In this document: positions 6,138 through 51,873 of the stretch, piece after piece
Position numbering within the stretch: position 1 is the stretch's first letter
How the letters are laid out: each line of letters begins with the position of its first letter
Source: Vibrio crassostreae
Lineage (GTDB): Bacteria; Pseudomonadota; Gammaproteobacteria; Enterobacterales; Vibrionaceae
Direction of reading: 5' to 3'
DNA length: 64,000 nucleotides
Assembly: GCF_024347415.1 (NCBI RefSeq)
Contig: NZ_AP025477.1
Location: forward strand, 868,001-932,000
Translations under genes and position numbers: made by a program
Notes under the pieces: model-generated
Told to the model about the DNA's origin: nothing
Database searches by the model: none
The model's input: the letters and a program-made list of their open reading frames with translations, nothing else

Positions 6138-6151
6138 TGATGTTTAAAGTT

Positions 6152-7787: not shown

Positions 7788-7900
7788 ACTTCCTCTCGAC
7801 ATTGGCGTCATAATTCAACCTAAGCGATTGTGCCTTATGCATTAAAGTGCATCAAATAGATGTATTGAGAGTTGGCAGTGGATCAAAGATTCTGCATAAG

Positions 7901-8050: not shown

Positions 8051-8143
8051 AATAAGCTCCTTTTAAATGAGTAAAAGAAGCTTAAGACTTGAAGTTAGGT
8101 TGAGGTAAAGTGAAAATTCAAATTAATCGGCATGTTTGTCTTG

Positions 8144-8500
8144 CTACTCAATAATGACTCTGAATACATCGTTATTCACACCACCAACATCCACTAACTC
8201 TCCGGGCTTCATAACAAGCGAGGCGTTTAGTTGTCGTGTTGAACGCGGCTCTTTCTTTTCTCGAATCACGAGTATATCGACGAAGTAGCCAGGGTCTTGC
8301 TTACGTATTGCCCCTGAAAAAGTCACGCTTTCAGCCCTATCAGCGAGCACTGAACTAAATGTTTTATCTTCTAAAACACCCGCAGAGATCGACGTATTAC
8401 CATAAAAAAGAGTGACAGTTGTTGGGTCAGGAGCTAACTCTGGTTTGGATGAACAACCCATCAGGGCTAGGCACAACAGTAAAATAATTCGAAATTGCAT
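8144..8500 (-). CDS. Putative lipoprotein, function unknown
   Basis: 118 residues. The N-terminus MQFRIILLLCLALMGC is a lipoprotein signal with lipobox LALMGC; lipidation is expected at Cys16. The mature part has no motif that I recognise and looks beta-rich. It lies between the small membrane peptide and a DJ-1/PfpI gene on the same strand, but the 56-base gap to the latter does not prove an operon. Confidence 0.75.
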   Translation of the reverse strand: MQFRIILLLCLALMGCSSKPELAPDPTTVTLFYGNTSISAGVLEDKTFSSVLADRAESVTFSGAIRKQDPGYFVDILVIREKKEPRSTRQLNASLVMKPGELVDVGGVNNDVFRVIIE

Positions 8501-8556
8501 AAACTGGTTTTCTTTCTCTCGTTAAACGCTTTTTGTAAAAATACCATAACGATGAT

Positions 8557-32834: not shown

Positions 32835-32845
32835 TGTCTATTCCC

Positions 32846-34279: not shown

Positions 34280-34372
34280 AATGAATGTCCATATCTTGCG
34301 TTAAATAACGCATATAAAAGATTGGCGTATCAGATTTGTAGCTCTGATATCGTTATGTTTTTAGATATAGAT

Positions 34373-34837
34373 TTATGCGGCAGGTGGGCGTAACAAAGAC
34401 TGAGCACGCGTGACTTTTTGGCCAATAGTGACCGATTGAAAACGAGCTAATGAAAAGGAAAATTGATTAACGGCTTGAACAGCCTGAATTGGATAGGGAC
34501 TTGCAGAACACATTGAGGCACAGCAATCGGCACTCGAACAATGGTTACCCATCATCGAACTGCCGTCTTCGCTCATTGAAGACATATCGCATTGAGCCAT
34601 CAAAGCATGGGCACTCATGTTAGAGTCTTCAGCGTGTACTTTTTCACTCATCACATGACACCCTGCCATTGAATCATTAACCGAAGTATCGCTGTGGTAA
34701 CAAGCCGATTTGCTCGACCCCATTTCCATCATCATTACTTCAGTCATCAAGGCTGAGGAGCTTGAGGCATAGCTAGACATCAACATCGCAATGATGCTGA
34801 AAACAATAATCCAAGTTTTTCGGAATGTGTTTGTCAT
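34373..34837 (-). CDS. Exported Met/Cys/His-rich protein leading the copper operon
   Basis: 154 residues. N-terminal hydrophobic segment WIIVFSIIAMLMSSYASSSS (signal peptide or anchor), then a region crowded with possible soft-metal ligands: MTEVMMMEMG, SKSACYHS, MAGCHVM, MGNHCSSADCCASMCSA. The C-terminus SLLRPPAA is unlike the rest. I do not recognise the family. Being first in the operon, directly behind the metal-type promoter and 93 bases before cusC, it is likely a periplasmic copper-binding or sensing protein. AAAGG ribosome site. Confidence 0.75.
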   Translation of the reverse strand: MTNTFRKTWIIVFSIIAMLMSSYASSSSALMTEVMMMEMGSSKSACYHSDTSVNDSMAGCHVMSEKVHAEDSNMSAHALMAQCDMSSMSEDGSSMMGNHCSSADCCASMCSASPYPIQAVQAVNQFSFSLARFQSVTIGQKVTRAQSLLRPPAA

Positions 34838-35070: not shown

Positions 35071-38000
35071 ATGACTAAAAAAAACAGCGTCAAAAAAAGC
35101 GAAAAGCTCGATAAAAAAGAGCAAACTAAAACCCAGTCCGCAAATACTGTAAAACAGAAAAAACCTAAGAAAGTTCGATTGCATTCGAAACTTAAGGTCA
35201 ATGTACCTCTGACTCAGTCTTTAATGCTCATTCTACCGTCGCTCGCTAAACACGCTTCAGCTGAAACGGTGAGCCCAACGGATAATTCCACATTGGCTCA
35301 TCAAGATTCCACCAACAATCAAGAAAGTGCAGTTCATCAAAGCGCTGATATTTCTAAAGACGAAAATAAAAAAACCATAACAAGAAATATTCACGATTCA
35401 GATGCTATTGTTGGTCAAGAGTCCTCTTCGACGGGAGGTGAAACGACGCTAAGACCTTCACATCACCTTTCTAGCTCGTCACACCCTCAAGCTCATTACA
35501 TCCCCGCAAGTTCGATTCCTTCTATCGAATCGGGAGGCATAACGGCACCTACTAACAATGTTCCGACAACACCGAGCCTACCAGTAACCTTTACTCCGGA
35601 AGTGATCAAAGGAATATATGGGGAACTGCACGTTGATTCGGGTGGTAAGTACACCTTTGTATTGAACCCTCTTTCACCTCAATACGTTTTGCTACACCAA
35701 AATCAACCCGGCACAGATAAGTTCGTGCTGCACTTATCAAATGGGTCTAGTGTTGTCGTTCAAATACCCGTTACTGGTAAGCAAGACGTTCCTACCATTT
35801 CTGGAGATTTGCACGGCATAGTGACCGAAGATAGCAACGTGGATTCTCACGGGTTACTGAATGCAGCAGGTAAGATTGATGTCGTCGACCCCGACCATGA
35901 TCAAAGCTCTGTGCTTGCTGAAACGATTACCGGAAAATATGGCACGCTGACTATCGACTCTAACGGTGCATGGCACTATCAAGTCGACAATTCACTTCCC
36001 AATATCCAAGCGTTGACCTCACTCACTAGCCTCCATGAGTCGTTTACCATTCACACCAAAGATGGCACTCCTCAAGCGCTTGAAATGACAATTGGCGGCA
36101 TTGACGACAACGCAGTGGTCACGGGGTTAGATACTGGGACTTTGATCGAAGACTCAACATTACACGCTCATGGACAATTAACGGTTTCTGATCTGGATTT
36201 AAACCAAGATCACTTTCAATCCGAACAACTTCAAGGCCATTGGGGCAGCCTATCCATTCAACCAGACGGTTCTTGGACTTACGATTTAGACAACACAAAC
36301 CCGAAGGTACAATCGTTATCGAAAGGCTCCACAGTGACAGACATCATCACTGTTCACTCTGCTGACGGCACACCACACCAAATTACGTTAACGATCAATG
36401 GTACTAATGACAAAGCAGTTATAACTACAGGTTCGGGAGGCTCTCCTCATTCATATTTGATGGGCAGAGTTAAAACAATCGACGGCCAAGTTACCGAAGA
36501 AACCAACCTGACGGCTTCAGGTGTGCTTAACGTAACTGATGTCGATGCTAATCAAGCTCATTTTTCTAATACTGATATCAAAGGTGCACTAGGTACGCTT
36601 CATTTAACCGATAATGGTATTTGGACATACACCCTTGATAACAAGAATCCAACAGTTCAAGCTTTGGGTAAACGTCATTCCGCAACAGATACAATTACTA
36701 TTCATTCTGCAGACGGTACGTCACATCATATTAATATATTCGTCAATGGTACCAACGACGGAGCCCTAATTAGCGGTACTGACACTGGTAAAGTAACTGA
36801 AGAAACGATGTTAACTACGTCGGGGCAATTAAAAATCACAGATGTCGATACCGGTGAAGCGCATTTTTCAAATACGGATATTGCGGGTGCTCTTGGTACG
36901 TTACATCTTACCGATACTGGTGGATGGACTTACGATCTTGATAATACAAACCCTACCGTTCAAGCGTTAGGAAAAGGTTCAACCGCAACTGACACGATTA
37001 CCGTTCATTCTGCCGATGGCACGCCGCATCAAGTGACTATCACAGTAAATGGCACTAATGACAAAGCTACTGTCAGCAGTGCGACCGTTGCTATCAATGA
37101 AACCGACAAAGCGGTAACTACTTCAGGAACATTGACTAGTACCGATGTTGACAATCCAGATAACACATTTACGCCAGACTCCATTGTTGGATCTAATGGT
37201 GATCTCACCATTGATGCCAATGGCCAATGGACCTTCACCGCCAACAGCGCGTTTAATCAATTGAATGTCGGCGATAAGGTCGAAGAAACCTTCACTGTGT
37301 CGTCTGTTGATGGCACACCGTCGACCATCAAGGTCATGATTAACGGCACCAATGACAAAGCCACTGTTAGCAGTGCAACCGTCGCTATAGATGAAACTGA
37401 TAAAGCAGTAACGACATCAGGCACGTTGACCAGTACCGACGTGGATAACCCAGATAATGCGTTTACTCCGGATTCGATTACTGGCACCAACGGTGACCTG
37501 ACTATTGATGCCAATGGTCATTGGTTCTTCACCGCTAACAGCGCATTTAATCAATTAAACGTCAGCGATAAAGTCGAAGAAACCTTCACGGTGTCGTCTG
37601 TAGATGGCACACCGTCCACCATCAAAGTGACGATTAACGGCACTAACGATGCCGCTACTGTCAGCAGTGCGACCGTTGCTATCGATGAAACCGACAAAGC
37701 AGTAACGACTTCAGGAACATTAACTAGCACCGATGTCGATAATCCGGATAATGCGTTCACTCCAGACTCCATTGCAGGCACAAATGGCGACCTCAACATT
37801 GATGCCAATGGTCACTGGGTATTCACCGCTAACAGCGCGTTTAATCAATTGAATGTCGGCGACAAGATCGAAGAGACCTTCACTGTCTCGTCTATTGATG
37901 GCACAGCGTCAACGATCAAAGTGACAATTAATGGCACCAATGATAAAGCGACGGTCAGTACCGCAACGGTCAGTGTGGATGAAACTGACAAAGCGGTAAC

Positions 38001-41000
38001 GACATCAGGCACGTTGACCAGTACTGACGTGGATAATCCAGATAATGCATTCACACCGGATATTATTTCAGGCACCAACGGTGACCTGACTATTGATGCT
38101 AATGGTCATTGGGTCTTCACCGCCAACAGCGCGTTTAATCAACTAAATGTTGGCGATAAAGTAGAAGAAACCTTTACGGTATCGTCGGTTGATGGCACAG
38201 CGTCAACCATCAAAGTGGCGATTAACGGCACTAACGACGCCGCTACTGTCAGCAGTGCGACCGTCGCCATTGATGAAACCGACAGAGCGGTAACCACCTC
38301 AGGCACCCTAACCAGTATCGACGTGGATAACCCAGACAATGCGTTCACACCCGATTCCATTTCCGGTACCAACGGTGATCTCACCATTGATGCCAATGGT
38401 CATTGGGTATTCACAGCTAACAGCGCGTTTAATCAATTGAATGTCGGCGATAAAGTCGAAGAGACCTTCACTGTCTCGTCTATTGATGGCACAGCGTCAA
38501 CGATCAAAGTCACGATTAATGGCACTAACGATGCAGCGACAGTCAGTACCGCAACAGTCAGTGTGGATGAGACTGATAAAGCGGTAACTACCTCAGGCAC
38601 GTTGACCAGTACCGATGTGGATAATCCAGATAATGCATTCACACCGGATTCGATTACTGGCACCAACGGTGACCTGACTATTGATGCTAATGGTCACTGG
38701 AGCTTCACCGCCAACAGTGCGTTTAATCAACTGAACGTTGGCGATAAAGTCGAAGAAACCTTCACGGTGTCGTCTGTAGATGGCACAACGTCCACCATCA
38801 AGGTGACGATCAACGGCACTAACGATGCCGCAACTGTCAGCAGTGCGACCGTTGCCATTGATGAGACCGACAAAGCAGTAACGACATCAGGAACGTTGAC
38901 TAGTACCGATGTAGACAACCCAGACAACACGTTTACGCCAGACTCCATTGTTGGATCTAACGGCGACCTGACTATTGATGCTAATGGGCATTGGGTGTTC
39001 ACCGCCAACAGCGCGTTTAACCAATTAAATGTCGGCGATAAGGTCGAAGAAACCTTCACCGTATCTTCCGTTGACGGCACACCTTCGACCATCAAAATTA
39101 CGATCAATGGCACTAACGATACTCCCGTCATTAAAGCGCAATCTCACTCGGTTATTGAAGGGGGGAGCCTCTTAAATGGACAAATGGTTGGCCATGATAT
39201 AGATGCAGGTGGAACATTGACTTACAGTGCACCGCAAGTCGATGGCTTAGTGATCAACCCAGACGGCAGTTACAGCTTCAACCCTAGTCACTCCACTTAT
39301 CTGTCTTTAGCTTCGGGCATAACAAAAACACTCACTATTCCTGTAACAGTGACTGATGAACATAATGCGAGCAGCACACAAAACCTTTCAATCATAATCA
39401 CCGGGGTAAACAACTCTGCAACGGTAAGCGGTGTCGACTCAGGAGATGTCACTGAAGGCAATGCAGGGCAAGACATGTCCCCAGATTATGCTCAACCTGG
39501 CATGGCATTCCTTGGCCGAAGTACCATACATACCACTGGCAAGCTCAATATTACCGATGTCGATACAGGCGAAGCGGAATTTGACACTCACGGCATTGGG
39601 TTTACTTATTCAGGTCAATACGGCGACCTTCTTCTGAACAAAGATGGTAGTTGGTCATATCATGCTGATACCGGTCAAATTCGCAGTACAGGAGGGCTAA
39701 CCAGCACCCGTGGCACAACGATTGACCAACTGGGGGAAAATCAAACTCTCACAGATACGGTTACCGTATTTACCAAAGATGGAACCTCTCATGACATTGT
39801 TATTACCATCCATGGTAGCAACGACCGCCCTTATTGCGCTTCAGAAGTACAGTTAAACTCAGGGAAAGAAGACTTAGCTCAGACCATTACTTCCACTGAA
39901 CTGTTAGCAAATACCGTAGATGTGGACGCTAATGACGCAGGTCAACTCTCCATTACAAATCTACACGCTGACCATGGTTCAATTCGCGATAACAATGATG
40001 GGACATTTACCTTCACTCCAAATTCGGATTACAACGGTAAAATTCAATTCAGTTATGACGTTAAAGATGCACATGGCGGTGTGACATCAACTTCAGCCTC
40101 TCTTGATCTTGCACCAGTTGACGATGCCGCTGTCATTACCGGACAACATGCCGGTGATATTACTGAAGACAATTTGCAATCGTACCAGAGCGCACTAACT
40201 GTAAAAGGTCATTTGCATGTTGTTGATCCCGATGGTGGTGAGGCTCAGTTTACCAGTGTTACCAAAATAGATGACCCTTACAATACAACTCAGAATGGCT
40301 TATCTATCTCGCCAAATGGAGCTTGGTCCTATGACGTGAACAACAACTTAAGCTCGGTCCAGAATATGGCAGAGGGCGAAACAAAAGATATTGTGTATGA
40401 AGTACAAACGGTTGACGGTACCAAACAACGTATCACGATTACGCTTCACGGCACAAACGATAGCCCAATCTTGCAGTTTACTAGCTATGGCAGTGCAAGT
40501 GCAGGTTCTAATCCTATAAGTACCGATGAAGACAAGGCCATTACCATTTCTATCGATCGATTTGTAGGAGCAGGAAAAGATATTGACCATGGAGATACCC
40601 TCCATATTGAGCAATTACAAGTTGATCATGGAAAAGCTGTTTTATCGGCCGATGGTCAAAGTGTCATCTATACACCAGAAAAAGATTTTAATGGTCACGC
40701 AACATTTACCTATCAAATTGCCGATAGTCATGGCGCTTTGGCAATAAACCCTGCAACAGGACACCCAGGGCTTTCAGGGATGATGATTGATGTGAATGCA
40801 ATGCCAGACAATGCCGTTATTGGCGGTGATATCACTGGTGGCGTTACCGAAGACAAAATGATGGGAATGGCGCTTCTCCAGGCTCATGGAACCCTAACTA
40901 TTACCGATCCCGATGCGGGAGAGGCACAATTCTTACCCAATGATGGCGTACACAATAATGGCTACGAAACAGCTATGGGTGGTCTTGTAACGATTAATCC

Positions 41001-44000
41001 TAAAACAGGTGATTGGTCCTATGTGGTTGATAATTTTAAAACCGAAGTGCAGTCTCTTGGAGCAACAGAAACAGCAGTGGACACGGTAACGATTCACTCA
41101 AAAGACGGTACTGCTCAACAAATTCAAATTACTATCCATGGCGTAAATGATAATCCTACAGTCTCATCAGTGGTTACACTCGCTTCTGGAACTGAAGATA
41201 CTGATCAAACAATACAAGCATCAGACCTTCTTGCTCTTGCGACAGACGTCGACAAAAATGATGCGGGGCAATTAACGCTTGGAGCAATTTCTGTTGATCA
41301 TGGAAGTATTACCGATAATCACGATGGAACCTATACACTCCATCAAGAAGCGAACTATAACGGACAGGTTTCTCTGTCCTATGATATCAAAGATATTCAT
41401 GGCGGTTCAGTGGCCACTTCTGCTTCTCTTCAGCTAGCTGCTGTGAACGATAATCCCGATGTACAACCTTTAACAGACCGTGTTATTGAGGGAGCGACAT
41501 CACCACACCACCTAGATCTGCTAGCAGGCGCAACAGATAAGGAAGGAGACGCTTTAAATATAGAGCAGCTATCTTTTTCAGTAGATGGCGGAAAAAGCTC
41601 TCAATTGCTTCCATCTGGACTATCAATCGCTAAAGATGGTCATACTTTACTGGTCGATGCAACCGACCCTGCATTTAACTACCTCAATGCTGGTCAGCCA
41701 TTGAACATAGTGGCGTCTTACCTTGTGAGTGATGGTCATGGTGGCCAAACTCAGCAAACCGCTGTTCTTACAATTGAAGGGACAGATGACAAAGCGGTAC
41801 TAGTCTCGAATGTCATACAAATGAGTGAAACAGATGCATTACAGAGTGAGTTTACTCGCTATCAAGGTAAGCTGCAGATAATCGACCCTGATACTGGCGA
41901 CAATACTCAATTTCAATTTGGCGGTGTTTATATAGGGCAAGGGTTTCCCCCTGGTGAACTTGATATATGGCCTGATGGGTCATACTCATTCCATTTAGAG
42001 ACAGCTCTTAATCGCCATGCTGATGACTTGGTCAGTAGCTTACACCAAGGGGAGTCAATGGAATTCCCTTATACTGTTAAAACCACTGATGGGCAAACAG
42101 TGACTATCATGGTGAAAGTCATTGGTGAAGACAGCCAAGCAAGAATCGAAGTCGGTCGTTATTCAAGCGTTGACAACCACGTAACTGAAGACCACTTTAC
42201 TCCCGGAAGTACCCATAACCTAATAAGTAGCAGTGGTCATTTACATGTTATCGACCCCGATCATGATCAAGCTGGTTTTATAGCACAAAACATCAATACC
42301 CCGGAAGGTGGTCATTTTCATATAAATGCTCGTGGAAGTTGGGCTTACAATATAGATAACAGCAAGTTACAACACTTAGGTGCTGGTGAAAGCTACCAGA
42401 AAACATTCACCGTAGAATCCATTGATGGTAGTGCCCATCGAGATATTACTGTCACAGTGCATGGTACCAATGATAATCCCGTTATCTCCTCCGCAATATC
42501 TTTACCTGCTGGAGTAGAAGATACAAAGATCATTCTTACTTCACCTCAACTGCTTGCAAATACTACGGATATTGATGACAACGATGCAGGCCAGCTTTCA
42601 ATAGCCAATTTGCAAACCGACCACGGATCCATTTTAGCCAATACCAATGGCACTTTCACCTTTACCCCAGAAGCTAACTACCACGGACAGGTAAAATTCA
42701 CTTATGACGTTAAAGATGCACATGGTGGCATTACACACACAAGTGCGAGCACAACATTGGCAGCGGTTAATGACGCAGGTGTAATCACAGGAGATAAGTC
42801 AGGAACTATCACCGAAGATAGCCACGTACAAGGTGATGCTCAACATACGATTTATACCGTTGGAGTTCTTGATGTCACCGATCCCGATGCTGGGGAAAAT
42901 CATTTCCATGAAAGCCATAATGTGCATGCTCTCCATGACCCATTTGGAGGATCTTTCACCATAGGAAAAGCTGGAGATTGGAGTTATTCCGTTCCTAATG
43001 CCAACGTCCAGCACCTTGCTAAGGATCAGGTAGAGACAGTGCAATACGAAGTGATCACACAAGGTGGCGATAAACAAATCGTTACAGTGAGCATCCACGG
43101 CACCAACGATGATCCAATACTTTCAATCACGCAGACTACGCCAGTTACAGGTACCTTGACTGAAACAGATGTCGATGTAAAAGACACGCATTCTTTCTCA
43201 GTGGTTAGCCCTACCGGACAGTTTGGTGACCTTTCGGTTGATCCAACCTCTGGCGCTTATGTTTACACTCCAAATTCTTCTGTTTCAGGCATGAGCTATA
43301 ATTCAGCCACACACACCTACCATGGCGCTGATGTGTTTGAAGTTAAAGTTGCGGATAATCATGGTGGTGAGTCATCTAGATTCCTCACCTTTGATACCAA
43401 TGGACAAGTCAATCTGATTACAGGGCAGCAACCAACTATCACCACAACAGTACCACAAAACCCCATCGTTACGACGGCGCAACCAAGCCTTCCAACTAGC
43501 AGTAACACGCCACCAAGTAATACGGTTACTGTAGATTTGGTGGCTTCAAGTGATAGCGGAAAATCGGATACAGACAACCTTACAAACAACAATACGCCAA
43601 CAATAACGGGTCACACTGACGTCCCTTACTCACAAGTGACTATTTACGATGGTTTAACCCCGATTGGACATGCGGTATCTGATGGTTCAGGTCAATACAG
43701 TGCTGTGGTCACCAACTTAACGGATGGCGATCACAATCTATCCGCCAAAGCTCTGGCTCCTTCTTCATCGTTGCCTGCAACGTCGCCACTACTTTCAGTA
43801 CATGTTGATACCACTATTGCTCCGCTGACTATCGAGTTAACTCATGACACCGGCAGTAACGCTTCTGACTCGATTACTAGTGGTGGCGCATTAACCATTA
43901 CCGGGCAAGAAGCAGGCGCAACCGTTGAATATTCAACGGACAATGGTCAAACATGGACATCGAGTTTCACGCCACAGCAAGGTTCAAATACCGTAAGTGT

Positions 44001-46431
44001 GAGACAAACTGATACCGCAGGTAATGTGTCCACCAACACGTCATTGAGTTTCACCCTAGATAATTCGATTGCAGCACCAACGGTGTCATTGGTCCAGGAC
44101 ACTGGTCGACATCTAATCAATACACCAGACTTAATCACTCAAGACTCTCAGCTTTCCATTCAAACGGAAGCGGGCGCGAAAATAGAATATTCCAATGACG
44201 GTGGGCACAGTTGGACGGCTGTATTTAACCCAGCAGAAGGTGTAAACAACCTACAGGTAAGACAAACTGATATCGCAGGTAACGTATCGCCAGCGACTCA
44301 TTTTAGCTTTACGCTAGATACAACCCCCGGCACAGTAACCGTAAATCCAATATCGCAAGATAATGCGTTAAATGCGGCTGAGAACAACCAACCACTGGTG
44401 ATCACGGGAACAACTTCGAACGTCGATCCTGGTGATGTCGTGTATGTTATCGTCGGTAATAACCATTTCTATGACGCAACCGTAAAATCAGATGGTTCAT
44501 GGTCATTGACCCTAAGTGCATCTGCTCACCAAAGTATTTTGGCGGCTGACCACGATTACCCAATACAAGTGGGATCCGTGGATGCAGCTGGCAATTCAAC
44601 CCCTCGTATTTCGACTCATTTGTTAGTCGATACACAAAATCCAATTCCACATATCGCTGTTGATTCAGTTACGCAAGATAACGTGCTTAATGCCCTTGAG
44701 TCGGGGCAAAGTATACCGATAACAGGCACGGTGACGGGTGATTATCACACAGGTGATACTGTAAGCTTGAAAATAAACGGAGCGAATATTCCGTCTCTCA
44801 CGGGCACCGTTGATGCGGCTGGGCATTTCTCAATTCCTGTTGCAGGTAACGTATTGGAACGTGCCAATATCCATACTAGCTATGCAAGTGGGCAGGCGGC
44901 ACCCATACACTCTATTGAAGCCACAATACAAACGACCGATGCGGTAGGAAATACAGGAAGTGCTACCACTGGTTCGCAAGTGTTCACCGTTGATACACAA
45001 ATACACATTGGCATTCATACCGACCCTGTCACTGTTGATAACGTGATTAACGATCAAGAGTCCTATTCATCCGTTGATATCACCGGTTCCGTTTCTGGTG
45101 ATTTTAATACTGGAGATGTTGTCACTTTAAATGTAAATGGCATAAAACATACTGGCGCTGTCGATTCACATGGGCACTATTCAATTGCTGTTCCTGGTAG
45201 TGAATTAATTGCAGATGCTGACCAGAAAATTGAAGCCTCAATAGCCGTTACAGATAGCGCAGGTAATAGCGCACACGCCACCACCGATGTGGTTTACCAA
45301 GTCGACACTCAGGTAAGTCTCCCTACGATTACTTTTGAAAGCGCAGGCGCAGACAACTTATACAGCAAAGCTGAAATTGCCCGTGGTGATGCAAACACGA
45401 TCACAGCAACCATTACGCCTCCTGGTGATGCAAAAATTGGCGAGCATATCAATATCAATGGTGTTGACCATGTGCTCGATGCCCACAGTCTACAGAATGG
45501 GTTACAAATAGAAGTTGCACCAGGCTCTCATGTACAAGTGACCATGACTGACGAACACGGTAATACCGCGGGTAGCCAAGGCTTTGCTGCCAGTGCCATA
45601 CCTGATCCGATCATAGTCAAAGCGCCACCGGGAAGTCACCAAGTGTCCGGTTCACTGGGTACACCGCCACTACTCCCATCTTTAACGCCAGTGCCAACTG
45701 CACAACATGGTTGGCGGATTCATCTTCCAGATGGGAGTTATGTAACAAGCCATCACGGTCAATATGGAACATTAACCATTGACCCTCAGACTGGTGATTT
45801 ACACTATCAAGAACAGGCAAATGTACACACAGGGCCACATGGCAGCGCTTCTGGTATTGGCCAACATGAAGACAAGTTCGAAGTTGCATTACAAGGGACA
45901 AATCAAGATGAAGTGGTTGCCCATGTGAACGTTCAAATACTCAGCCACGGCCCGGGAAATAGCGGTAAACTGAATATAGGTACCGAGGTGGTTGATATGA
46001 CAATAACCCCTATTACCCATACCTCACACCCTGCTCCACCACCGCCTCCTCCGGTGTTACATGACGAGCCTGACATGTCTTCGCAAGCAGACTTTACCGT
46101 TACGCAAAGTGATGACAGCTATCTAGATTTGACTCAGCACGCTCACCAAGTACCAGACCAGAAAACCAGTCATCATGGTGCAGCAGCTTATCTGGATGCC
46201 TTGGGCATTAAACCCGATGCGACATCGACAACGGTTGACGATCAACCTGCTGATATGGACATCGTACTAGCACAAGTCGACCAACAAGATGCAGCAACAC
46301 ATGACCAAGCGCACTTAGATATGTCAGACGCGCTTGAACACCATGATGCAAATATCAACCATAACCAAGATGATGAGCATCACCATCACAACGACGTAGA
46401 CGGGCTGCCGGACATAGACCCTAATCCATAA
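35071..46431 (+). CDS. Giant VCBS/cadherin/Ig-like repeat surface protein (putative adhesin)
   Basis: 3786 residues in one open frame. Residues 1-66 are Lys-rich followed by a short hydrophobic stretch ending KHASA. About 240-665: four VCBS-type units (landmarks VTEDS..., DLDNTNP, INGTND). 666-1351: seven near-identical 98-residue units. 1352-2800: mixed VCBS and cadherin-like units (ANTVDVDANDAGQLSI, FTYDVKDAHGG). 2811-3510: Ig-like units of the kind found in large bacterial adhesins (QTDIAGNVSP). A last VCBS-like unit is followed by a Pro run and a 130-residue Asp/His-rich tail (HNQDDEHHHHNDVDG). No Gly-rich RTX nonapeptides are visible. The many DxDxD-type loops suggest calcium binding. 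It converges with a type I secretion operon that probably exports it. Likely role: cell-surface adhesion or biofilm. Ribosome site weak (GGATGAAAAG). Confidence 0.88.
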   Translation: MTKKNSVKKSEKLDKKEQTKTQSANTVKQKKPKKVRLHSKLKVNVPLTQSLMLILPSLAKHASAETVSPTDNSTLAHQDSTNNQESAVHQSADISKDENKKTITRNIHDSDAIVGQESSSTGGETTLRPSHHLSSSSHPQAHYIPASSIPSIESGGITAPTNNVPTTPSLPVTFTPEVIKGIYGELHVDSGGKYTFVLNPLSPQYVLLHQNQPGTDKFVLHLSNGSSVVVQIPVTGKQDVPTISGDLHGIVTEDSNVDSHGLLNAAGKIDVVDPDHDQSSVLAETITGKYGTLTIDSNGAWHYQVDNSLPNIQALTSLTSLHESFTIHTKDGTPQALEMTIGGIDDNAVVTGLDTGTLIEDSTLHAHGQLTVSDLDLNQDHFQSEQLQGHWGSLSIQPDGSWTYDLDNTNPKVQSLSKGSTVTDIITVHSADGTPHQITLTINGTNDKAVITTGSGGSPHSYLMGRVKTIDGQVTEETNLTASGVLNVTDVDANQAHFSNTDIKGALGTLHLTDNGIWTYTLDNKNPTVQALGKRHSATDTITIHSADGTSHHINIFVNGTNDGALISGTDTGKVTEETMLTTSGQLKITDVDTGEAHFSNTDIAGALGTLHLTDTGGWTYDLDNTNPTVQALGKGSTATDTITVHSADGTPHQVTITVNGTNDKATVSSATVAINETDKAVTTSGTLTSTDVDNPDNTFTPDSIVGSNGDLTIDANGQWTFTANSAFNQLNVGDKVEETFTVSSVDGTPSTIKVMINGTNDKATVSSATVAIDETDKAVTTSGTLTSTDVDNPDNAFTPDSITGTNGDLTIDANGHWFFTANSAFNQLNVSDKVEETFTVSSVDGTPSTIKVTINGTNDAATVSSATVAIDETDKAVTTSGTLTSTDVDNPDNAFTPDSIAGTNGDLNIDANGHWVFTANSAFNQLNVGDKIEETFTVSSIDGTASTIKVTINGTNDKATVSTATVSVDETDKAVTTSGTLTSTDVDNPDNAFTPDIISGTNGDLTIDANGHWVFTANSAFNQLNVGDKVEETFTVSSVDGTASTIKVAINGTNDAATVSSATVAIDETDRAVTTSGTLTSIDVDNPDNAFTPDSISGTNGDLTIDANGHWVFTANSAFNQLNVGDKVEETFTVSSIDGTASTIKVTINGTNDAATVSTATVSVDETDKAVTTSGTLTSTDVDNPDNAFTPDSITGTNGDLTIDANGHWSFTANSAFNQLNVGDKVEETFTVSSVDGTTSTIKVTINGTNDAATVSSATVAIDETDKAVTTSGTLTSTDVDNPDNTFTPDSIVGSNGDLTIDANGHWVFTANSAFNQLNVGDKVEETFTVSSVDGTPSTIKITINGTNDTPVIKAQSHSVIEGGSLLNGQMVGHDIDAGGTLTYSAPQVDGLVINPDGSYSFNPSHSTYLSLASGITKTLTIPVTVTDEHNASSTQNLSIIITGVNNSATVSGVDSGDVTEGNAGQDMSPDYAQPGMAFLGRSTIHTTGKLNITDVDTGEAEFDTHGIGFTYSGQYGDLLLNKDGSWSYHADTGQIRSTGGLTSTRGTTIDQLGENQTLTDTVTVFTKDGTSHDIVITIHGSNDRPYCASEVQLNSGKEDLAQTITSTELLANTVDVDANDAGQLSITNLHADHGSIRDNNDGTFTFTPNSDYNGKIQFSYDVKDAHGGVTSTSASLDLAPVDDAAVITGQHAGDITEDNLQSYQSALTVKGHLHVVDPDGGEAQFTSVTKIDDPYNTTQNGLSISPNGAWSYDVNNNLSSVQNMAEGETKDIVYEVQTVDGTKQRITITLHGTNDSPILQFTSYGSASAGSNPISTDEDKAITISIDRFVGAGKDIDHGDTLHIEQLQVDHGKAVLSADGQSVIYTPEKDFNGHATFTYQIADSHGALAINPATGHPGLSGMMIDVNAMPDNAVIGGDITGGVTEDKMMGMALLQAHGTLTITDPDAGEAQFLPNDGVHNNGYETAMGGLVTINPKTGDWSYVVDNFKTEVQSLGATETAVDTVTIHSKDGTAQQIQITIHGVNDNPTVSSVVTLASGTEDTDQTIQASDLLALATDVDKNDAGQLTLGAISVDHGSITDNHDGTYTLHQEANYNGQVSLSYDIKDIHGGSVATSASLQLAAVNDNPDVQPLTDRVIEGATSPHHLDLLAGATDKEGDALNIEQLSFSVDGGKSSQLLPSGLSIAKDGHTLLVDATDPAFNYLNAGQPLNIVASYLVSDGHGGQTQQTAVLTIEGTDDKAVLVSNVIQMSETDALQSEFTRYQGKLQIIDPDTGDNTQFQFGGVYIGQGFPPGELDIWPDGSYSFHLETALNRHADDLVSSLHQGESMEFPYTVKTTDGQTVTIMVKVIGEDSQARIEVGRYSSVDNHVTEDHFTPGSTHNLISSSGHLHVIDPDHDQAGFIAQNINTPEGGHFHINARGSWAYNIDNSKLQHLGAGESYQKTFTVESIDGSAHRDITVTVHGTNDNPVISSAISLPAGVEDTKIILTSPQLLANTTDIDDNDAGQLSIANLQTDHGSILANTNGTFTFTPEANYHGQVKFTYDVKDAHGGITHTSASTTLAAVNDAGVITGDKSGTITEDSHVQGDAQHTIYTVGVLDVTDPDAGENHFHESHNVHALHDPFGGSFTIGKAGDWSYSVPNANVQHLAKDQVETVQYEVITQGGDKQIVTVSIHGTNDDPILSITQTTPVTGTLTETDVDVKDTHSFSVVSPTGQFGDLSVDPTSGAYVYTPNSSVSGMSYNSATHTYHGADVFEVKVADNHGGESSRFLTFDTNGQVNLITGQQPTITTTVPQNPIVTTAQPSLPTSSNTPPSNTVTVDLVASSDSGKSDTDNLTNNNTPTITGHTDVPYSQVTIYDGLTPIGHAVSDGSGQYSAVVTNLTDGDHNLSAKALAPSSSLPATSPLLSVHVDTTIAPLTIELTHDTGSNASDSITSGGALTITGQEAGATVEYSTDNGQTWTSSFTPQQGSNTVSVRQTDTAGNVSTNTSLSFTLDNSIAAPTVSLVQDTGRHLINTPDLITQDSQLSIQTEAGAKIEYSNDGGHSWTAVFNPAEGVNNLQVRQTDIAGNVSPATHFSFTLDTTPGTVTVNPISQDNALNAAENNQPLVITGTTSNVDPGDVVYVIVGNNHFYDATVKSDGSWSLTLSASAHQSILAADHDYPIQVGSVDAAGNSTPRISTHLLVDTQNPIPHIAVDSVTQDNVLNALESGQSIPITGTVTGDYHTGDTVSLKINGANIPSLTGTVDAAGHFSIPVAGNVLERANIHTSYASGQAAPIHSIEATIQTTDAVGNTGSATTGSQVFTVDTQIHIGIHTDPVTVDNVINDQESYSSVDITGSVSGDFNTGDVVTLNVNGIKHTGAVDSHGHYSIAVPGSELIADADQKIEASIAVTDSAGNSAHATTDVVYQVDTQVSLPTITFESAGADNLYSKAEIARGDANTITATITPPGDAKIGEHININGVDHVLDAHSLQNGLQIEVAPGSHVQVTMTDEHGNTAGSQGFAASAIPDPIIVKAPPGSHQVSGSLGTPPLLPSLTPVPTAQHGWRIHLPDGSYVTSHHGQYGTLTIDPQTGDLHYQEQANVHTGPHGSASGIGQHEDKFEVALQGTNQDEVVAHVNVQILSHGPGNSGKLNIGTEVVDMTITPITHTSHPAPPPPPPVLHDEPDMSSQADFTVTQSDDSYLDLTQHAHQVPDQKTSHHGAAAYLDALGIKPDATSTTVDDQPADMDIVLAQVDQQDAATHDQAHLDMSDALEHHDANINHNQDDEHHHHNDVDGLPDIDPNP
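37066..39123 (+). repeat. Seven tandem 294-bp (98-codon) near-identical repeats
   Basis: Exact period 294 bases, seven copies, each starting ATVSSATV or ATVSTATV and ending TINGTND. Copies 4 and 6 share the variant ATVSTATVSVDE, while 1, 2, 3, 5 and 7 have ATVSSATVA. Copies 3-4 and 5-6 look like a duplicated 588-bp pair (both odd copies end SIDGTASTIKVTINGTND). Such DNA-level identity allows copy-number change by recombination. Confidence 0.95.
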
Positions 46432-46520: not shown

Positions 46521-46547
46521 AAAGGGAGCACATTATGTGCTCCCTTT
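46521..46547. terminator. Bidirectional terminator, giant protein / secretion operon
   Basis: Perfect 12-bp stem AAAGGGAGCACA/TGTGCTCCCTTT with a 3-base loop. T-rich tracts follow in both directions (TTGTTTTTTATT rightwards; TTGGTTTTCATTTTC leftwards), serving both converging transcripts. Confidence 0.88.
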
Positions 46548-46598: not shown

Positions 46599-47912
46599 TT
46601 ACCTTTCTCCAAATGCAACGCTGATGTTGGTGTAGATCGGCTTCCAAAGGTATTGGAATACAGACTTCTCGCCTGTAGTAATGTCAACTTCGCCCGTCAT
46701 ACCCGGCAAAATAGAAAAGCTCTCAGGATTATCACGGAAGTACGGCGTTTCAACCGATACCACAACCTCATAGTAAATCTCGCCTCGCTCGCTTTGACTG
46801 GTGGTTGGTGAAATACTTTCCACCTCACCTTTCAGCGCCCCAAAGCGACTGTAATCAAACGCGTCAATCTTGATTCGAGTCGGCTGCCCTACACTCACAA
46901 AACCAATATCTCTTGGCGATAAACGAGCTTTAAAGTCAGCTTTCCCACCAACAGGAACGATTTCAACCACAATGCCACCTGGCTGAATAACACCACCGTT
47001 TTGTGTGCTTGGCAGGCTTTGCACCAAGCCTTGTAGCGGTGACACCAACATAGTGTTGGTCAGTTTCGCTTGGCTTGAACGAACTCTGGCATTCAATGCT
47101 GATAAGTCAGATACGGCTTTAGAACGATCGTCGCTGACCTTCGCCTTCGCCTCTGCTAAAAGCTGTTCAATTTTTTGCTCTGTACTGTCTGCTTGCTTGA
47201 TTAACACAGCTTTCTTACCACGAGCTTCTTCGATTTTCTGTTCGATACTGGCCAGTTTTTGTCGCATTTCAAGCACACGTAAGCGTGAAATGTTGCCCGA
47301 TTTATAACCCTTTTCTAGTATATTCAACTCTTGCTTAGTCGCATTTAGCTCTTTCTCATAACTCGGCAAGGCCTTTTCTACACTCCGAAGTTGCTCTGCA
47401 ATTTGCTCGCTCTCTTTCTCAAGCACCACACGTTTTTGGAAGTAGAGGGCTTTCTGCGCGTTCAGTTGCGCTTTTTGTTGGCTAACAATCTCAGGATAAT
47501 CGACCTCGAACTCAGCAAGGCTAGGCTCGCGTTGCTCAAGCAGCGCATTCATACGTTCCACACTGGCTAGAAGCGTCACTTGTTGAGACTTCAATTCTTC
47601 AAGAGCGGTACGTTGGAAAGTGGCATCAAACTCAACAAGTGGCTGACCTTTCTCAACCAACTGACCTTCTTTAACGAGAATTTGCTTTAATTTACCGCCA
47701 ATCGCGCTTTGTAGTACCTGTTTTTCGCCTTCAGGAATCACAGCGCCTTTAGCTTTTGCAATTTCATCCACTTGAGTGACGACAGACCAAGTGGCAAAAG
47801 CGACAACACACAAAGCAACTGACCATGTCGCCAATGCCAATGTACGAGCCGTATTTTGTGATTCAACAAGTTCACCGTAGCGCTTGCCCTTCTCGATAGA
47901 TTGTTTAGCCAT
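46599..47912 (-). CDS. Type I secretion membrane-fusion protein (HlyD/LapC family)
   Basis: About 437 residues from the ATG at 47912, which follows AAGGAG at good spacing and overlaps the stop of the ABC gene by 8 bases. One N-terminal membrane segment (ALCVVAFATWSVV), then the HlyD pattern: AKGAVIPEGEKQVLQSAIGG lipoyl-like half, long coiled coil (about residues 100-300) and a beta-barrel end with VEIVPVGGKADFKARLSPRDIGFV and the terminal membrane-proximal SVFQYLWKPIYT. It bridges the inner-membrane ABC transporter to an outer-membrane TolC. No TolC gene lies in this operon. Confidence 0.9.
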   Translation of the reverse strand: MAKQSIEKGKRYGELVESQNTARTLALATWSVALCVVAFATWSVVTQVDEIAKAKGAVIPEGEKQVLQSAIGGKLKQILVKEGQLVEKGQPLVEFDATFQRTALEELKSQQVTLLASVERMNALLEQREPSLAEFEVDYPEIVSQQKAQLNAQKALYFQKRVVLEKESEQIAEQLRSVEKALPSYEKELNATKQELNILEKGYKSGNISRLRVLEMRQKLASIEQKIEEARGKKAVLIKQADSTEQKIEQLLAEAKAKVSDDRSKAVSDLSALNARVRSSQAKLTNTMLVSPLQGLVQSLPSTQNGGVIQPGGIVVEIVPVGGKADFKARLSPRDIGFVSVGQPTRIKIDAFDYSRFGALKGEVESISPTTSQSERGEIYYEVVVSVETPYFRDNPESFSILPGMTGEVDITTGEKSVFQYLWKPIYTNISVAFGER

Positions 47913-50091
47913 TAGCGACTCCTTGCTTAGACTCTGATTGTTCTTGTTGGGCTGCATCTTGCTGAGCAGACGGGTCTTGTTCTTGGGAAGCTTGCGGCTC
48001 TGAATGCTGTTCCTGATCCAAAGGCTGCTCCGCCTCTAAAGGACCGGCATAAACAACAGCCCCCTCATTTAACACCACGACTTTGTCGGCAAGTTTGATT
48101 AAATCCGGATCGTGAGACGTGTAGATCAACGTTGCTTTTCCTTTTTTCAACTGCACAAACTCACCGAATATACGTTTAGCATTTGGGTGAGCATCAGGCA
48201 CAGGGTTATCCATTAAGAACATTGGGTAGTCATAAACCAGTGCTTTCGCGTCAATAAGGATCTGAGCGACAGTGCCTGACAACATGTCAAACAGGCTATC
48301 CGGTTGGATGCTGCTGATAGAGGTATCCAACCCATCTGGTAACGTGGAGAACCATCGCTTGCCGCCAACCATATCAATGGCTGATATCATTTTCTGCTCT
48401 TCAACTTTATGCCCATCGCTCAACCACTCGCGAATACTCAATGTAAGTAAGTCGGGGTAAGCGGCGCGAATGAAACACCAGTGACGATAGAGCTGTGGGT
48501 CGTATTGAACGAGGTTAACGCCTTCAAGCTCGACCATACCGTTTTGGATAGGCTGTAAACCAGACAACACTTCAATTAATGTCGATTTACCACTACCTGA
48601 AGGGCCTGTAATCGCCACAATATCACCAGCTTCAACATCAAAACTTACCCCATTCAATGCAGGGCGACTCTGTTTAGGGTAACGGAGAGTCACTTGATCT
48701 AACTTCAAGTTCGGAGCAACCGTTGGCAATGGATGATGTTGGTAACTGAATTCACGTTCAGACGGCTGAGACAGAATACGATTTACCTGCAGCTTAGATT
48801 GATTAAAGCTATTAAAGCGCATCGCGCTGTTCGCCAACACCTGCGCAGGCCCAGTTACTTTGGAAATCAACATCATTGAAGCAATCAAGCCACCAGGGGT
48901 CATCACTTGTTCGAAAATAAGTCCAATACCTAAGCCCATGACAGCCAATGTTGAGCCCACTCCGATAAAGTAATAAATAGAGGTGTATCGACTTTGCAGA
49001 ACCGATTGATTAAACGTCACCGTAGAGGCAAGCAGATTGGCCTTTTGGAAACGTTGGATCCAGTGCTCTGAAAACCCAGCACTACGAATAAAGGCAAGCT
49101 TGGATGACAACTCATTAGTCATATTTTGACGATTCGTGCCCGCTACCGTCGATTGCATTGAGCGTTTACTACTCGAACGTATCGAACGCTTAGCTAACAG
49201 GTAATACAGAACCAAAGAGACAATTGGAACCAATACCAGCCAGCCACCTAGCACACCTATCGCAAGAACAAAAATGGCAATGAAAGGCAAATCAAACAAC
49301 GCATTACCGAGTGGTCCTGATAACACACCAGAAATACGCTCAGATAACATCACTTGGTTTTGTTGACTAGACGAAGCTGTTTGCTGGTTTTGAGCATAGC
49401 TATTTCTTAGTAGTCGTTGCACAAGAGATTGAGAGATCTCGCGGCTGACTCGGTTAGACACAGAGGCAAACACTCGGCTGCGCAATGTTCTTAACCAGCC
49501 CATCATCACAAACAACAAGGCTGCGCCAATGGCGATTCCTTGCAGTTCGTGTCCTGCGTCACCGCCAATCACATGGTCATAAATAGACATCGTGATGAAG
49601 GGGACGGCAAGTGCAAACAAGTTGGTGATAAAACTGACCAACAACAATTTAGGAATGATGGGACGAAACGCATGTAACCTTTCGCCAACCCAATCAGGAG
49701 ATGCCTTCTCTAATGGTGGACCTTCGATAACGATGCAAAACTGCGGGACATCGGTGATATCGTCATTGGCGTTAAAAGAGACAAATTGTTTGGATTCCAA
49801 ATGACCAGAGACCAACTCATGTTCGCCAAGCACCAGTAATACTAATTTGTGTTCACCAACTTCATCTAGGTTGGCAACCAAGCGATAGGGCAATGCAAGC
49901 CTGTCGAACAAGGCAAACATATCGTCTATTGATTCAATGCCATTCTCATCGACCCATTGATGTGCGAACAATTGGATATTCGCATTCACTTCCAACTGCT
50001 TGAGGACGGAAAGACTCTCGGTTTCTAAATGGTTCATCACCTCTTTTCGACCATTCGTATCTGCACGGTTGCTAGCATCTAAACGATTCAT
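47905..50091 (-). CDS. Type I secretion ABC half-transporter A, degenerate ATPase (LapB-like)
   Basis: 728 residues. Order: an N-terminal C39-like, non-peptidase domain (about 25-135), six transmembrane segments (about 150-430), a nucleotide-binding domain (about 470-690), and a Gln/Glu-rich tail. Walker A is intact (GPSGSGKST) and the His loop is present (YTSHD). However, the Q-loop Gln is replaced (CFIRAA where VPQ is usual), the signature reads LSGTVAQ instead of LSGGQRQ, and Walker B reads FLMDNP, so the catalytic Glu is Asn. It probably binds ATP but hydrolyses it poorly. Good ribosome site (AGGAGG, 7 bases); the ATG overlaps the upstream ABC gene by four bases. Confidence 0.9.
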   Translation of the reverse strand: MNRLDASNRADTNGRKEVMNHLETESLSVLKQLEVNANIQLFAHQWVDENGIESIDDMFALFDRLALPYRLVANLDEVGEHKLVLLVLGEHELVSGHLESKQFVSFNANDDITDVPQFCIVIEGPPLEKASPDWVGERLHAFRPIIPKLLLVSFITNLFALAVPFITMSIYDHVIGGDAGHELQGIAIGAALLFVMMGWLRTLRSRVFASVSNRVSREISQSLVQRLLRNSYAQNQQTASSSQQNQVMLSERISGVLSGPLGNALFDLPFIAIFVLAIGVLGGWLVLVPIVSLVLYYLLAKRSIRSSSKRSMQSTVAGTNRQNMTNELSSKLAFIRSAGFSEHWIQRFQKANLLASTVTFNQSVLQSRYTSIYYFIGVGSTLAVMGLGIGLIFEQVMTPGGLIASMMLISKVTGPAQVLANSAMRFNSFNQSKLQVNRILSQPSEREFSYQHHPLPTVAPNLKLDQVTLRYPKQSRPALNGVSFDVEAGDIVAITGPSGSGKSTLIEVLSGLQPIQNGMVELEGVNLVQYDPQLYRHWCFIRAAYPDLLTLSIREWLSDGHKVEEQKMISAIDMVGGKRWFSTLPDGLDTSISSIQPDSLFDMLSGTVAQILIDAKALVYDYPMFLMDNPVPDAHPNAKRIFGEFVQLKKGKATLIYTSHDPDLIKLADKVVVLNEGAVVYAGPLEAEQPLDQEQHSEPQASQEQDPSAQQDAAQQEQSESKQGVANG

Positions 50092-51734
50092 ACAATAGCC
50101 TCCTGGTTGTTCTCGCTGTCGACCGCAATAGTTCGACTTTCCACTGTAATGATTCGATTAGCCAATTCGCGAAGTTTAGAATGATAGCTCACCATCAGTA
50201 TCGTGCGTCCTGCCGTCACTTCTTCTTCCAACACCTTAGCTAGGTTTCCAAGGGCATCTAAATCAAGCGAGGAATCTGGCCTTTCTAGCATGATAATGGG
50301 TTTATCACTTGCCAGTTGAGTCGCGATATTGAGCATTTTCACGTTACCCATACTCAGCAGAGACGCACTCGTATGGCCAATTTGTGTCTCTAGTCCATCG
50401 GGTAACCGAGTAATTTCTTTGGTTAAGCCCAAGCGTTTAGCATAGTCATTGGCGCTTTGTGTTCTCTCGGGATCAAAGCCACATAAGTTGTCGAGAATAG
50501 TCCCCGACACCAATTGCCCTTTCACGCCACAGTAGGCAGCAATATTGTTTACTGATGCCATAGAAACGGCTTCGCCATTAATGAAGCACTCACCCGCATT
50601 TAGATCATCAATACCTGCAATCGACGACAATAAATGACTGTTGGTGTGGCGATCCTCACTCTCTAACAATACCAACTCACCTTTATTCAGTGTGACATCT
50701 GCATGAGAGAGTTCACCGTATCTTTCAGCGGTCGCTTGCTTAATTTCCAGCGTCTCAAAGTCAGATAAAGGGGTCTCAGGTTGCTCAGAATCTGAAAACT
50801 CAGATAGTGACAAGTCATTCAATTTTTCTATTGCCTGATTGGCACTGTGTATTGAATTAAGCTTGATTCGAACCCCAACCAGTGCACTCAAAGGCGCAAC
50901 CGCTCTGCCCGATAAGATAGAACATGCCGCCAACCCACCTGTGGTTAACTGACCATCCAACACCCACAAGCTCCCCGTAATCACCAGTAAAACTGACGTC
51001 GCTAATGCAGCAAGCTGAATACATTCTTGGGCGAAGGCGTTCTGTTCTTCTTCTCTCGCTTTAGACTGAGAGCGAACATTATTGAGGGATTTGAACTGAT
51101 TGAAGATTCGAGACTCAACGGCCTGACGTTTGATTCCCTGAATGGTTTGGCTTTGCAAAATTAAGAACGCTTTTCGATCCTGATCATCTCGGGAAGCTTC
51201 TTCACTTAGGCTTTTAACGCGAATAGAAGATAACCAAACGATTCCGAGAGTAATAAGCCAAACTGCCAAAGGTATCGCCACCAGCTCACCGCCAATGTAA
51301 GCCACCAACCCCAAGAAGATCAGTGCAAAAGGTAAGTCGATAAAGCCAGCTATTACCCCACCAGAATACCAGTCTTTGACTTTTGATACGGAGCCTAACC
51401 CTTCTTCCACGCCCCCAACTCCTAGGTGGCGAATATGACCGGATGAAGCATTAGTCACTCTTTCAACTAAGGTTTGGTAGGTCGCTTTCTCGGTATTACT
51501 GGCTGCCGCAGACAAAAGCCAAGTACGCACGAATCGAATCAATGCTTCCATCGCGACGGCCAATGTCGCACCAGCCAATAGTAGAGTGGCGGTACCGTAA
51601 CTTTGGTTAGGTAAAATACGATCGTAAATTTGTAAAACCGTTAATGGAACGGCAAGAGAGAGAAGATTTATGAGTAAAGAAGGCAGTAGGACTTTCCCTA
51701 CCACCCCTTTGTTTTTCATTGAACTTGCGGGCAT
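50088..51734 (-). CDS. Type I secretion ABC half-transporter B, strongly degenerate ATPase
   Basis: About 548 residues from the ATG at 51734 (AAGGA upstream). Six transmembrane segments with the T1SS opening SLLINLLSLAVPLTVLQIYDRILPN and GFIDLPFALIFL, no C39-like domain. The nucleotide-binding domain keeps the fold landmarks (SGTILDNLCGF, LPDGLETQIG, SSLD) but Walker A is lost (LESEDRHTNSH where GxSGSGKST is expected), the Q-loop is lost, the signature reads LLSMGNVK and Walker B reads IIMLERPDSSLD (Asp to Glu, Glu to Arg by direct alignment). His loop His remains (VSYHS). It cannot be a normal ATPase. It is first in the operon and coupled to gene A by ATGA, so a heterodimer is the natural model. 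Confidence 0.88.
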   Translation of the reverse strand: MPASSMKNKGVVGKVLLPSLLINLLSLAVPLTVLQIYDRILPNQSYGTATLLLAGATLAVAMEALIRFVRTWLLSAAASNTEKATYQTLVERVTNASSGHIRHLGVGGVEEGLGSVSKVKDWYSGGVIAGFIDLPFALIFLGLVAYIGGELVAIPLAVWLITLGIVWLSSIRVKSLSEEASRDDQDRKAFLILQSQTIQGIKRQAVESRIFNQFKSLNNVRSQSKAREEEQNAFAQECIQLAALATSVLLVITGSLWVLDGQLTTGGLAACSILSGRAVAPLSALVGVRIKLNSIHSANQAIEKLNDLSLSEFSDSEQPETPLSDFETLEIKQATAERYGELSHADVTLNKGELVLLESEDRHTNSHLLSSIAGIDDLNAGECFINGEAVSMASVNNIAAYCGVKGQLVSGTILDNLCGFDPERTQSANDYAKRLGLTKEITRLPDGLETQIGHTSASLLSMGNVKMLNIATQLASDKPIIMLERPDSSLDLDALGNLAKVLEEEVTAGRTILMVSYHSKLRELANRIITVESRTIAVDSENNQEAIV

Positions 51735-51873
51735 ACACAATCCTTATCCATGCTTATGAAATAAGATTGGTACACCATGTTGACTATTGCAAGGTAACGA
51801 ACTGATTTAACGTGTTTTTCAATATAAATATGACACAGATCTTCCTACACAAATCTTCCGTTCTGTTCGTGCT

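Follow-up and report, generated by a model that had tools for sequence, protein, structure and literature searches.

Two adjacent genes, A and B, in a 64,000-nucleotide stretch of Vibrio crassostreae DNA (the window; C2:868001-932000 of a 5.8-Mb genome) encode ATP-binding cassette (ABC) proteins related to those of type I secretion systems (T1SS). The canonical residues of the ATPase domain that remain are divided between the two chains in a complementary way, and this division is conserved in the relatives of the pair. It is best read as one shared ATP site, for which A would supply the Walker half and B the signature half, while the other site would no longer be usable. We propose that A and B form an exporter that is dedicated to the giant adhesin encoded next door and uses ATP binding as its gate, hydrolyzing little ATP or none; judged by sequence, this comes close to an even chance but falls somewhat short of it. 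The pair raises the question of how a giant protein leaves the cell through two ABC proteins with a single, catalysis-poor site, and this in many marine Vibrio.

ATPase motifs of A and B

The two genes and the motifs of their products are located as follows.

47905-50091, minus strand: gene A, 728 residues, open frame; T1SS-type ABC protein with an N-terminal domain where HlyB has its CLD
48580-48606, minus strand: A Walker A, GPSGSGKST, residues 496-504, intact
48445-48474, minus strand: A Q-loop region, FIRAAYPDLL, no Gln
48262-48282, minus strand: A signature, LSGTVAQ, residues 604-610, second Gly lost
48202-48219, minus strand: A Walker B, FLMDNP, residues 625-630, Asp kept, catalytic Glu replaced by Asn
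48109-48117, minus strand: A H-loop, SHD, intact
50088-51740, minus strand: gene B, 550 residues, open frame from TTG (an ATG also lies at 51734); T1SS-type ABC protein without N-terminal CLD
50634-50666, minus strand: B Walker A position, LESEDRHTNSH, residues 359-369, no Lys
50343-50360, minus strand: B signature, LLSMGN, residues 461-466, Ser and second Gly kept
50277-50288, minus strand: B Walker B end, LERP, residues 485-488, no catalytic Glu
50262-50273, minus strand: B D-loop, SSLD, canonical Asp

By family models and predicted structure, A and B are proteins of the ABC exporter fold with T1SS-family sequence. The best NCBIfam models for both were TIGR03375, TIGR01842 and TIGR01846. On TIGR03375, A reached 306.5 bits (E 3.6e-91) and B 270.4 bits (E 3e-80), both below the cut-off of 693.1, which the LapB protein of the same genome passes with 972.8 bits. 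AlphaFold2 models were obtained for A (pLDDT 80.5, pTM 0.64) and B (pLDDT 79.9, pTM 0.56). The best PDB match of each was 8dck_A (HlyB), covering 687 columns for A and fitting loosely (root-mean-square deviation 7.8) for B.

As reference for the motifs we used 12 canonical proteins: this LapB, which is encoded in a LapC-LapG-LapD-LapB locus (L020, C2:1592000-1602000), and 11 other canonical homologues. The Walker A, signature and Walker B strings of both chains and the missing Q-loop Gln of A had already been quoted in the original prediction. All of them were found, and every quoted motif occurs exactly once in its protein. In addition, A retains the H-loop His and the Walker B Asp, and B the D-loop Asp and the signature Ser. 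A second P-loop was not seen in A or B, and a misalignment of the motifs was ruled out by the alignment with the 12 canonical proteins and the HlyB structure match. Thus, a complete ATPase site (Walker A, Q-loop, signature, catalytic Glu and His) is present in neither chain.

The comparison was extended to 41 loci, comprising the window, 25 relatives found by peptide patterns in genome contigs, and 15 of 20 more distant loci. Six peptide patterns were used for the 25 relatives, and the 15 distant loci came from a pattern-free search. Because one pattern, MGNVKMLN, lies in the B signature, this signature was partly selected in the set of 25 relatives. Motifs of A and B were read jointly in 46 loci, including one from Ferrimonas, and in five more outside the genus; split A genes (L080 and L090) were represented only by the ATPase-domain piece and L043 as fragments. 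The canonical residues that are missing in the window were absent from 25/25 relatives and from 15/15 more distant loci of the same branch. The comparison with LapB and other Vibrio genomes that had been proposed with the original prediction therefore turned out in its favor, since no copy with canonical motifs was found among these relatives.

The losses were distributed unequally over the two composite sites. On the Walker face of A, the A-loop aromatic residue, both Walker A Gly, the Lys, the Ser/Thr and the Walker B Asp were each kept in 41 of 41 loci (G496, G501 and K502 are invariant in 31 aligned A proteins), and the H-loop His in 37, with Gln in its place in four. On the signature/D-loop face of B, the Ser and the D-loop Asp were kept in all 41 loci and the second Gly in 37. 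At the opposite site, B has the Walker A Lys and the catalytic Glu in none of the loci and the A-loop residue in one, and A has the second signature Gly and the D-loop Asp in none. Neither chain has a Q-loop Gln or a catalytic Glu in any of the 41 loci; at the Glu position A carries Asn (38), Ser (2) or Cys (1). A GK[ST] P-loop was likewise absent from 30/30 further B proteins (whole-genome loci, many from the same species). The original statement that both composite sites are impaired holds insofar as both are altered. It has to be corrected for the asymmetry: one site keeps most of the binding residues without Glu and Gln, and at the other Walker A, Glu and the D-loop are gone. The accompanying proposal of a T1SS-type ABC pair with non-canonical energetics is supported.

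The division was also tested column by column. Of the ATPase-domain columns, 63 show little or no variation among the 12 canonical proteins; these were scored in 20 diverse loci, as kept with at least 16 and as lost with at most 4. Eleven of the 63 scored as kept in A and as lost in B, and none of these falls within LapB positions 551-638. Five (558, 563, 601, 610 and 638) were kept by B and lost by A, all in the signature/D-loop part. Seven were kept in both chains and the remainder was mixed or lost in both. A site shared by A and B is the simplest explanation of this complementary loss, which argues for a heterodimer in which two different chains would share their sites.

Gene B was detected in 78 of 227 genomes of the genus (E ≤1e-80; identity 32-100%). 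A class-level search matched 47 of 369 genomes, and 29 loci were fetched beside the window's own. Six of these are tandem pairs, whose six genomes belong to four further families of the class, and 23 score far higher to LapB than to B; the 11 additional canonical references were taken from the latter. Five of the six tandem pairs (L108, a near-copy of L096, was omitted) represent a first stage, in which both chains have the Walker A Lys, the Q-loop Gln and the Walker B Asp in 5/5 cases, the signatures are altered, and the catalytic Glu is present in A of 5/5 and B of 3/5. The second stage is a deep Vibrio branch formed by the remaining five of the 20 distant loci (L090-L094). Here B has no Walker A and both chains have no Q-loop Gln; the catalytic Glu is again found in A of 5/5 and in B of 3/5. 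In the third stage, the branch of the window, Glu is absent from both chains. By their motifs, the relatives thus form a graded series from two intact Walker faces to one site with Glu and then to none. The A proteins and the B proteins are orthologous sets: in a tree made by a quick method, a single branch sets off each of the three groups, A, B and canonical, from all others (support 99, 100 and 100). Because this tree was rooted at its midpoint, the direction of motif change is conditional on that root.

The same genome contains a second tandem pair of T1SS-like ABC genes (L019, C2:515000-530000; A2 at 5371-7509 and B2 at 7506-9092, both minus strand). A2 has the signature LPNG and no H-loop His, B2 has FDD as Walker B and FSRQV as signature. 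By eye, the neighbors resemble TolC, HlyD and hybrid histidine kinases, and a giant open reading frame of more than 6100 residues adjoins (C2:529628 onward). A2 and B2 join the A and B sides of the tree on very long branches; their kinship is therefore unsure and the pair was left out of the argument.

The operon, its cargo and its spread

The remaining features of the locus are given below.

46599-47957, minus strand: membrane fusion protein of the HlyD family, 370 bits on TIGR01843 and above its cut-off; ATG 47912 is the likely start
46521-46547, no strand assigned: terminator-like hairpin where the cargo gene and the operon converge, from a consensus scan of both strands
35071-46431, plus strand: cargo, giant protein of 3786 residues with 21 VCBS and other cadherin/Ig-like repeats
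35140-35280, plus strand: cargo N-terminal module, Lys-rich stretch, then RLHSKLKVNVPLTQSLMLILPSL
46042-46428, plus strand: C-terminal part of the cargo, GAAAYLDALGI ... tail rich in Asp and His, probably the export signal

B, A and the HlyD gene are a tightly coupled operon on the minus strand, as judged by their junctions. The frames of A and B are open and overlap by the 4-base ATGA just behind an AGGAGG, in agreement with the frames, overlap and ribosome site first reported, and the stop codon of A (47905-47907) is overlapped by the likely HlyD ATG (47912). The cargo gene reads toward this operon from the other side. The hairpin between them is weak evidence, because the stretch contains 6 terminator-like sites and 5.2 are expected from shuffled sequences; a promoter scan likewise gave no excess over shuffles. 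Past the start of the cargo gene, the window carries CusA/CusB/outer-membrane-protein metal efflux genes (27955-34837), with two CusF matches in CusB. Most stretches fetched from relatives stop inside the cargo gene, short of the Cus side.

The cargo is linked to the pair across the genus. The consensus of its N-terminal module is a Lys-rich stretch followed by RLHSxLKVNxPLxQSLMxILPSL, and a search at E 0.01 detected this module in 59 of the 227 genomes. All but three of these, 56 in total, carry B (Fisher p 4e-31, uncorrected for kinship). The C-terminus was found in 47 of 227 genomes (E 1e-6), 46 of them B carriers. Both counts are by genome, with adjacency to B not confirmed for each. They bear out the earlier assignment of the pair to the giant protein next door. 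The three module genomes outside the carriers are G007 and G148, which have fragments, and G014, which has lost B and the start of A. In G014 (L134, C117:36000-55900), this is a natural loss of B and the first ~70 residues of A with HlyD and cargo remaining; a weak CusB-like match (21%) lies just upstream of the remainder of A. In the fetched relatives, B, A and HlyD were together in 25/25 cases (HlyD is in pieces in L043 and cut by a contig end in L025), and the cargo C-terminus adjoins HlyD in 24/24 loci that reach that far, at 36-93% identity. Open frames of the cargo range from ~2000 to 6200 residues. In the loci L090-L094, where A keeps the catalytic Glu, the cargo gene is codirectional with the operon, and its product begins differently, with no LPSL module at the N-terminus.

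LapA-type substrates are marked by RTX repeats and by an N-terminal retention module with a di-Ala site cleaved by LapG. The window's cargo has no GGxGxD repeats, and AAG is missing from its N-terminal 200 residues; by these marks it is not a LapA-type substrate. Four of its stretches match a Ca2+-stabilized repeat model, the best at 3079-3176. A Sec signal peptide on the cargo was considered and rejected, as L075-L077 do not retain the Ala-Ser-Ala that the window's cargo has behind LPSL; the N-terminus may therefore rather serve as an anchor or stop.

The cassette is mobile. B occurs on six Vibrio plasmid records, and the whole cassette was seen in the one that was examined, V. tubiashii plasmid p251 (L177, 8004-17626), in the same stretch as a gene annotated as having a TcdA/TcdB pore-forming domain. 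Outside the Vibrio genomes, a 505-kb scaffold of Ferrimonas kyonanensis (L027) carries B, A and HlyD close to its end, at 88-93% protein identity and likely by horizontal transfer. In one examined record, A and B are both annotated merely as 'ABC transporter transmembrane domain-containing', and B has the same name in 5/6 of the Vibrio plasmid records. The exporter pair may thus be under-annotated.

Proposed binding-gated export and other readings

For the proposed export gated by ATP binding, A and B would form an obligate heterodimer as the inner-membrane ABC part of a T1SS, with the neighboring HlyD and probably the shared TolC of the cell as partners and the giant VCBS adhesin as exported cargo. 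One ATP would be bound between the Walker face of A and the signature/D-loop face of B and close the dimer. Since catalytic Glu and Q-loop Gln are lost, this site is expected to hydrolyze little or not at all. ATP binding may then open or load the gate for one giant molecule, in one stroke with few or no repeats. As the cadherin/Ig-like repeats emerge from the cell, their Ca2+-dependent folding may assist onward movement, and so, possibly, may the proton motive force. The conserved Lys-rich and hydrophobic N-terminus would stop the cargo in the machine, so that it stays on the surface. A return step would hardly be needed for a giant molecule that remains in the channel. In its strictest form, proteins of ~2000-6200 residues would be moved across two membranes without ATP hydrolysis by their own ABC pair, through a binding stroke, a Ca2+-dependent folding pull and an N-terminal end, without reset. 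We put this strict form forward tentatively and consider it rather unlikely.

Several published findings bear on these steps. In TmrAB, binding of ATP is sufficient for a single translocation, and its hydrolysis resets the transporter (PMC7205462). When the C-terminal Ca2+ sites of SiiE are lost, secretion falls to the level of a siiF mutant (PMC12607715), which by analogy would fit a pull from outside. Export of HlyA also uses the proton motive force (PMC3034196). In HlyB, the H662A variant has <0.1% activity and E631Q is impaired, not dead (PMC9751043); by comparison, the A/B site is expected to be slow or dead. In favor of binding-gated export, A proteins without the H-loop His (4/41) persist with open frames, although H662A nearly abolishes activity in HlyB.

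Other observations weigh against this proposal. The split between the chains is not clean, since A retains the signature Ser in 39/41 and the first Gly in 34/41 loci (one of these being Ser) and B retains the Walker B Asp in 18/41 and the His in 11/41. The retained site itself is without the first signature Gly and the Gln of B (each 0/41). In the outer relatives, the signature Ser of B is Pro or Asn, so the graded series is not monotone there. The ATPase domain of B evolves faster than that of A, and the ratios of nonsynonymous to synonymous substitution (dN/dS) on which selection was judged, from the window against six relatives, are rough, with many dS >1. As E631Q is merely impaired, slow hydrolysis is possible at the A/B site, and 37/41 A proteins retain the H-loop His. 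Finally, all 78 carriers in the genus encode a LapB-like protein, so that these genomes contain a candidate partner engine. The energy may accordingly come from slow hydrolysis or from a partner ATPase.

If the single A/B site hydrolyzes slowly by means of the H-loop His, the pair would be an ordinary slow heterodimeric exporter, sufficient for a giant cargo of low copy number. The frequent His fits this explanation, as do the Walker A Lys and Walker B Asp in 41/41 loci, the contrast between E631Q and H662A in HlyB (PMC9751043) and the precedent of degenerate-site exporters, a well-known class (PMC7756269). It is at odds with the absence of Q-loop Gln and catalytic Glu from all 41 loci and with the additional loss of the His in four A proteins. 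Moreover, known degenerate heterodimers retain, to our knowledge, one canonical catalytic site. We regard a slow exporter as an unlikely explanation that nevertheless carries real weight.

The scaffold idea of the original prediction would make A/B a channel without engine, a cargo-specific conduit in a mixed complex in which other, canonical ABC dimers hydrolyze ATP. A precedent is the HlyB/D complex, a trimer of dimers with a single dimer serving as the channel (Zhao 2022, cited after PMC9751043). A LapB-like match (E 1e-120) was found in 78/78 carriers, and 0/19 genomes without such a match carry B (hypergeometric 0.0002, or 0.002 after removal of 5 small or incomplete genomes, both uncorrected for kinship). 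This support is mild, as the base rate of LapB-like proteins is already 208/227. F. kyonanensis carries A/B at 88-90% identity and yet no close LapB was found there (genome completeness not given); the best match, with E 1e-64 and 26% identity, is a peptidase C39-type exporter. This weakens LapB as an obligatory engine. A PrtD-type exporter that comes with an HlyD of its own is encoded in the same genome and could be the partner. The cassette also has its own HlyD. Altogether, we find a channel without engine improbable.

Selection bears on the two remaining explanations. In the six comparisons mentioned, the rough dN/dS ratios of the ATPase domain were 0.021-0.042 for A and 0.071-0.158 for B, those of the transmembrane domain 0.009-0.032 and 0.023-0.064. 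Hence, the transmembrane domains were more constrained than the ATPase domains for both proteins in 6/6 comparisons. In two further relatives (L037 and L041), dS was saturated except for the transmembrane domain of B in L037. In the lineage of L081-L083 and L085, the four loci whose A has lost the H-loop His with frames still open, two comparisons gave identities of 79-90% for the ATPase domain of A and 51-71% for that of B, with dN/dS not computable as synonymous sites were saturated. A nucleotide-sensing scaffold or regulator of cargo display, instead of an exporter, would explain the loss of catalytic residues with binding kept, which is typical of regulators. The stronger constraint on both transmembrane domains speaks against it, as do gene order and cargo linkage, which fit export, and the predicted structures of A and B, which match HlyB over their length. 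We hold such a role to be very improbable. Decaying or mis-assembled genes are hardly credible for the family as a whole: A, B and HlyD are in pieces in L043 (also met as G002; 1/25 loci), A is split by a stop in L080 and L090, B and the start of A are lost in G014 and only fragments occur in G007 and G148, but ATPase-domain dN/dS of 0.02-0.16 and open frames in the other loci reject general decay, as the first description of the genes as not decaying had held.

Together, the carriers are a natural experiment that bears on the need for ATP hydrolysis, as opposed to mere ATP binding, in type I secretion, and the graded series allows the steps to be compared within related systems.

Comparison with known systems

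A T1SS ABC pair without catalytic Glu was not found in the open literature by searches of which only some were directed at this question, which is weak evidence of novelty, as most subscription papers were outside the scope and the sources were partial texts. The claim that no pair of this kind has been described may therefore hold for the missing Glu and has to be limited for the pairing. The MARTX T1SS contains two ABC proteins, RtxB and RtxE, both with working sites; A/B resembles it in having two ABC proteins, by description and not by sequence comparison. RtxB and RtxE are both needed (PMC3034196).

SiiE is a giant adhesin without RTX repeats that binds Ca2+ and leaves the cell through a T1SS (PMC12607715). 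The present system would share with SiiCDF/SiiE the export of a non-RTX giant adhesin. It differs in having two ABC proteins where SiiF acts singly; among the eight scanned proteins of the locus, none is SiiAB-like. The BapP cluster of Pseudoalteromonas tunicata combines a giant Ca2+-dependent adhesin with a membrane fusion protein, tandem ABC genes and a LolD-like ATPase (PMC12153261). Except for the separate LolD-like ATPase, which was not seen here, the two loci share this arrangement, with the genes for a giant adhesin, a fusion protein and an ABC tandem side by side. LapB/LapC with LapD/LapG also exports a giant repeat adhesin, and its model TIGR03375 is the best for A and B. However, A and B lie outside the LapB clade and far below the TIGR03375 cut-off, and their cargo has neither of the LapA-type marks.

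In the layout of A and in the HlyD partner, the pair resembles HlyB/HlyD/TolC, and HlyB (8dck, 7sgr) heads the structural matches of A and B alike and, for B, also the sequence matches in the PDB. The HlyB dimer consists of one chain with canonical sites, in contrast to two chains that would share one site without Glu and Gln in A/B, where B is also without CLD. Asymmetric pairs with a degenerate site are well known from TM287/288, BmrCD, TmrAB, TAP and CFTR (PMC7756269). A/B differs from such degenerate heterodimers in that no canonical catalytic site remains, the Glu being absent from both chains in 41/41 loci and any Walker A from B.

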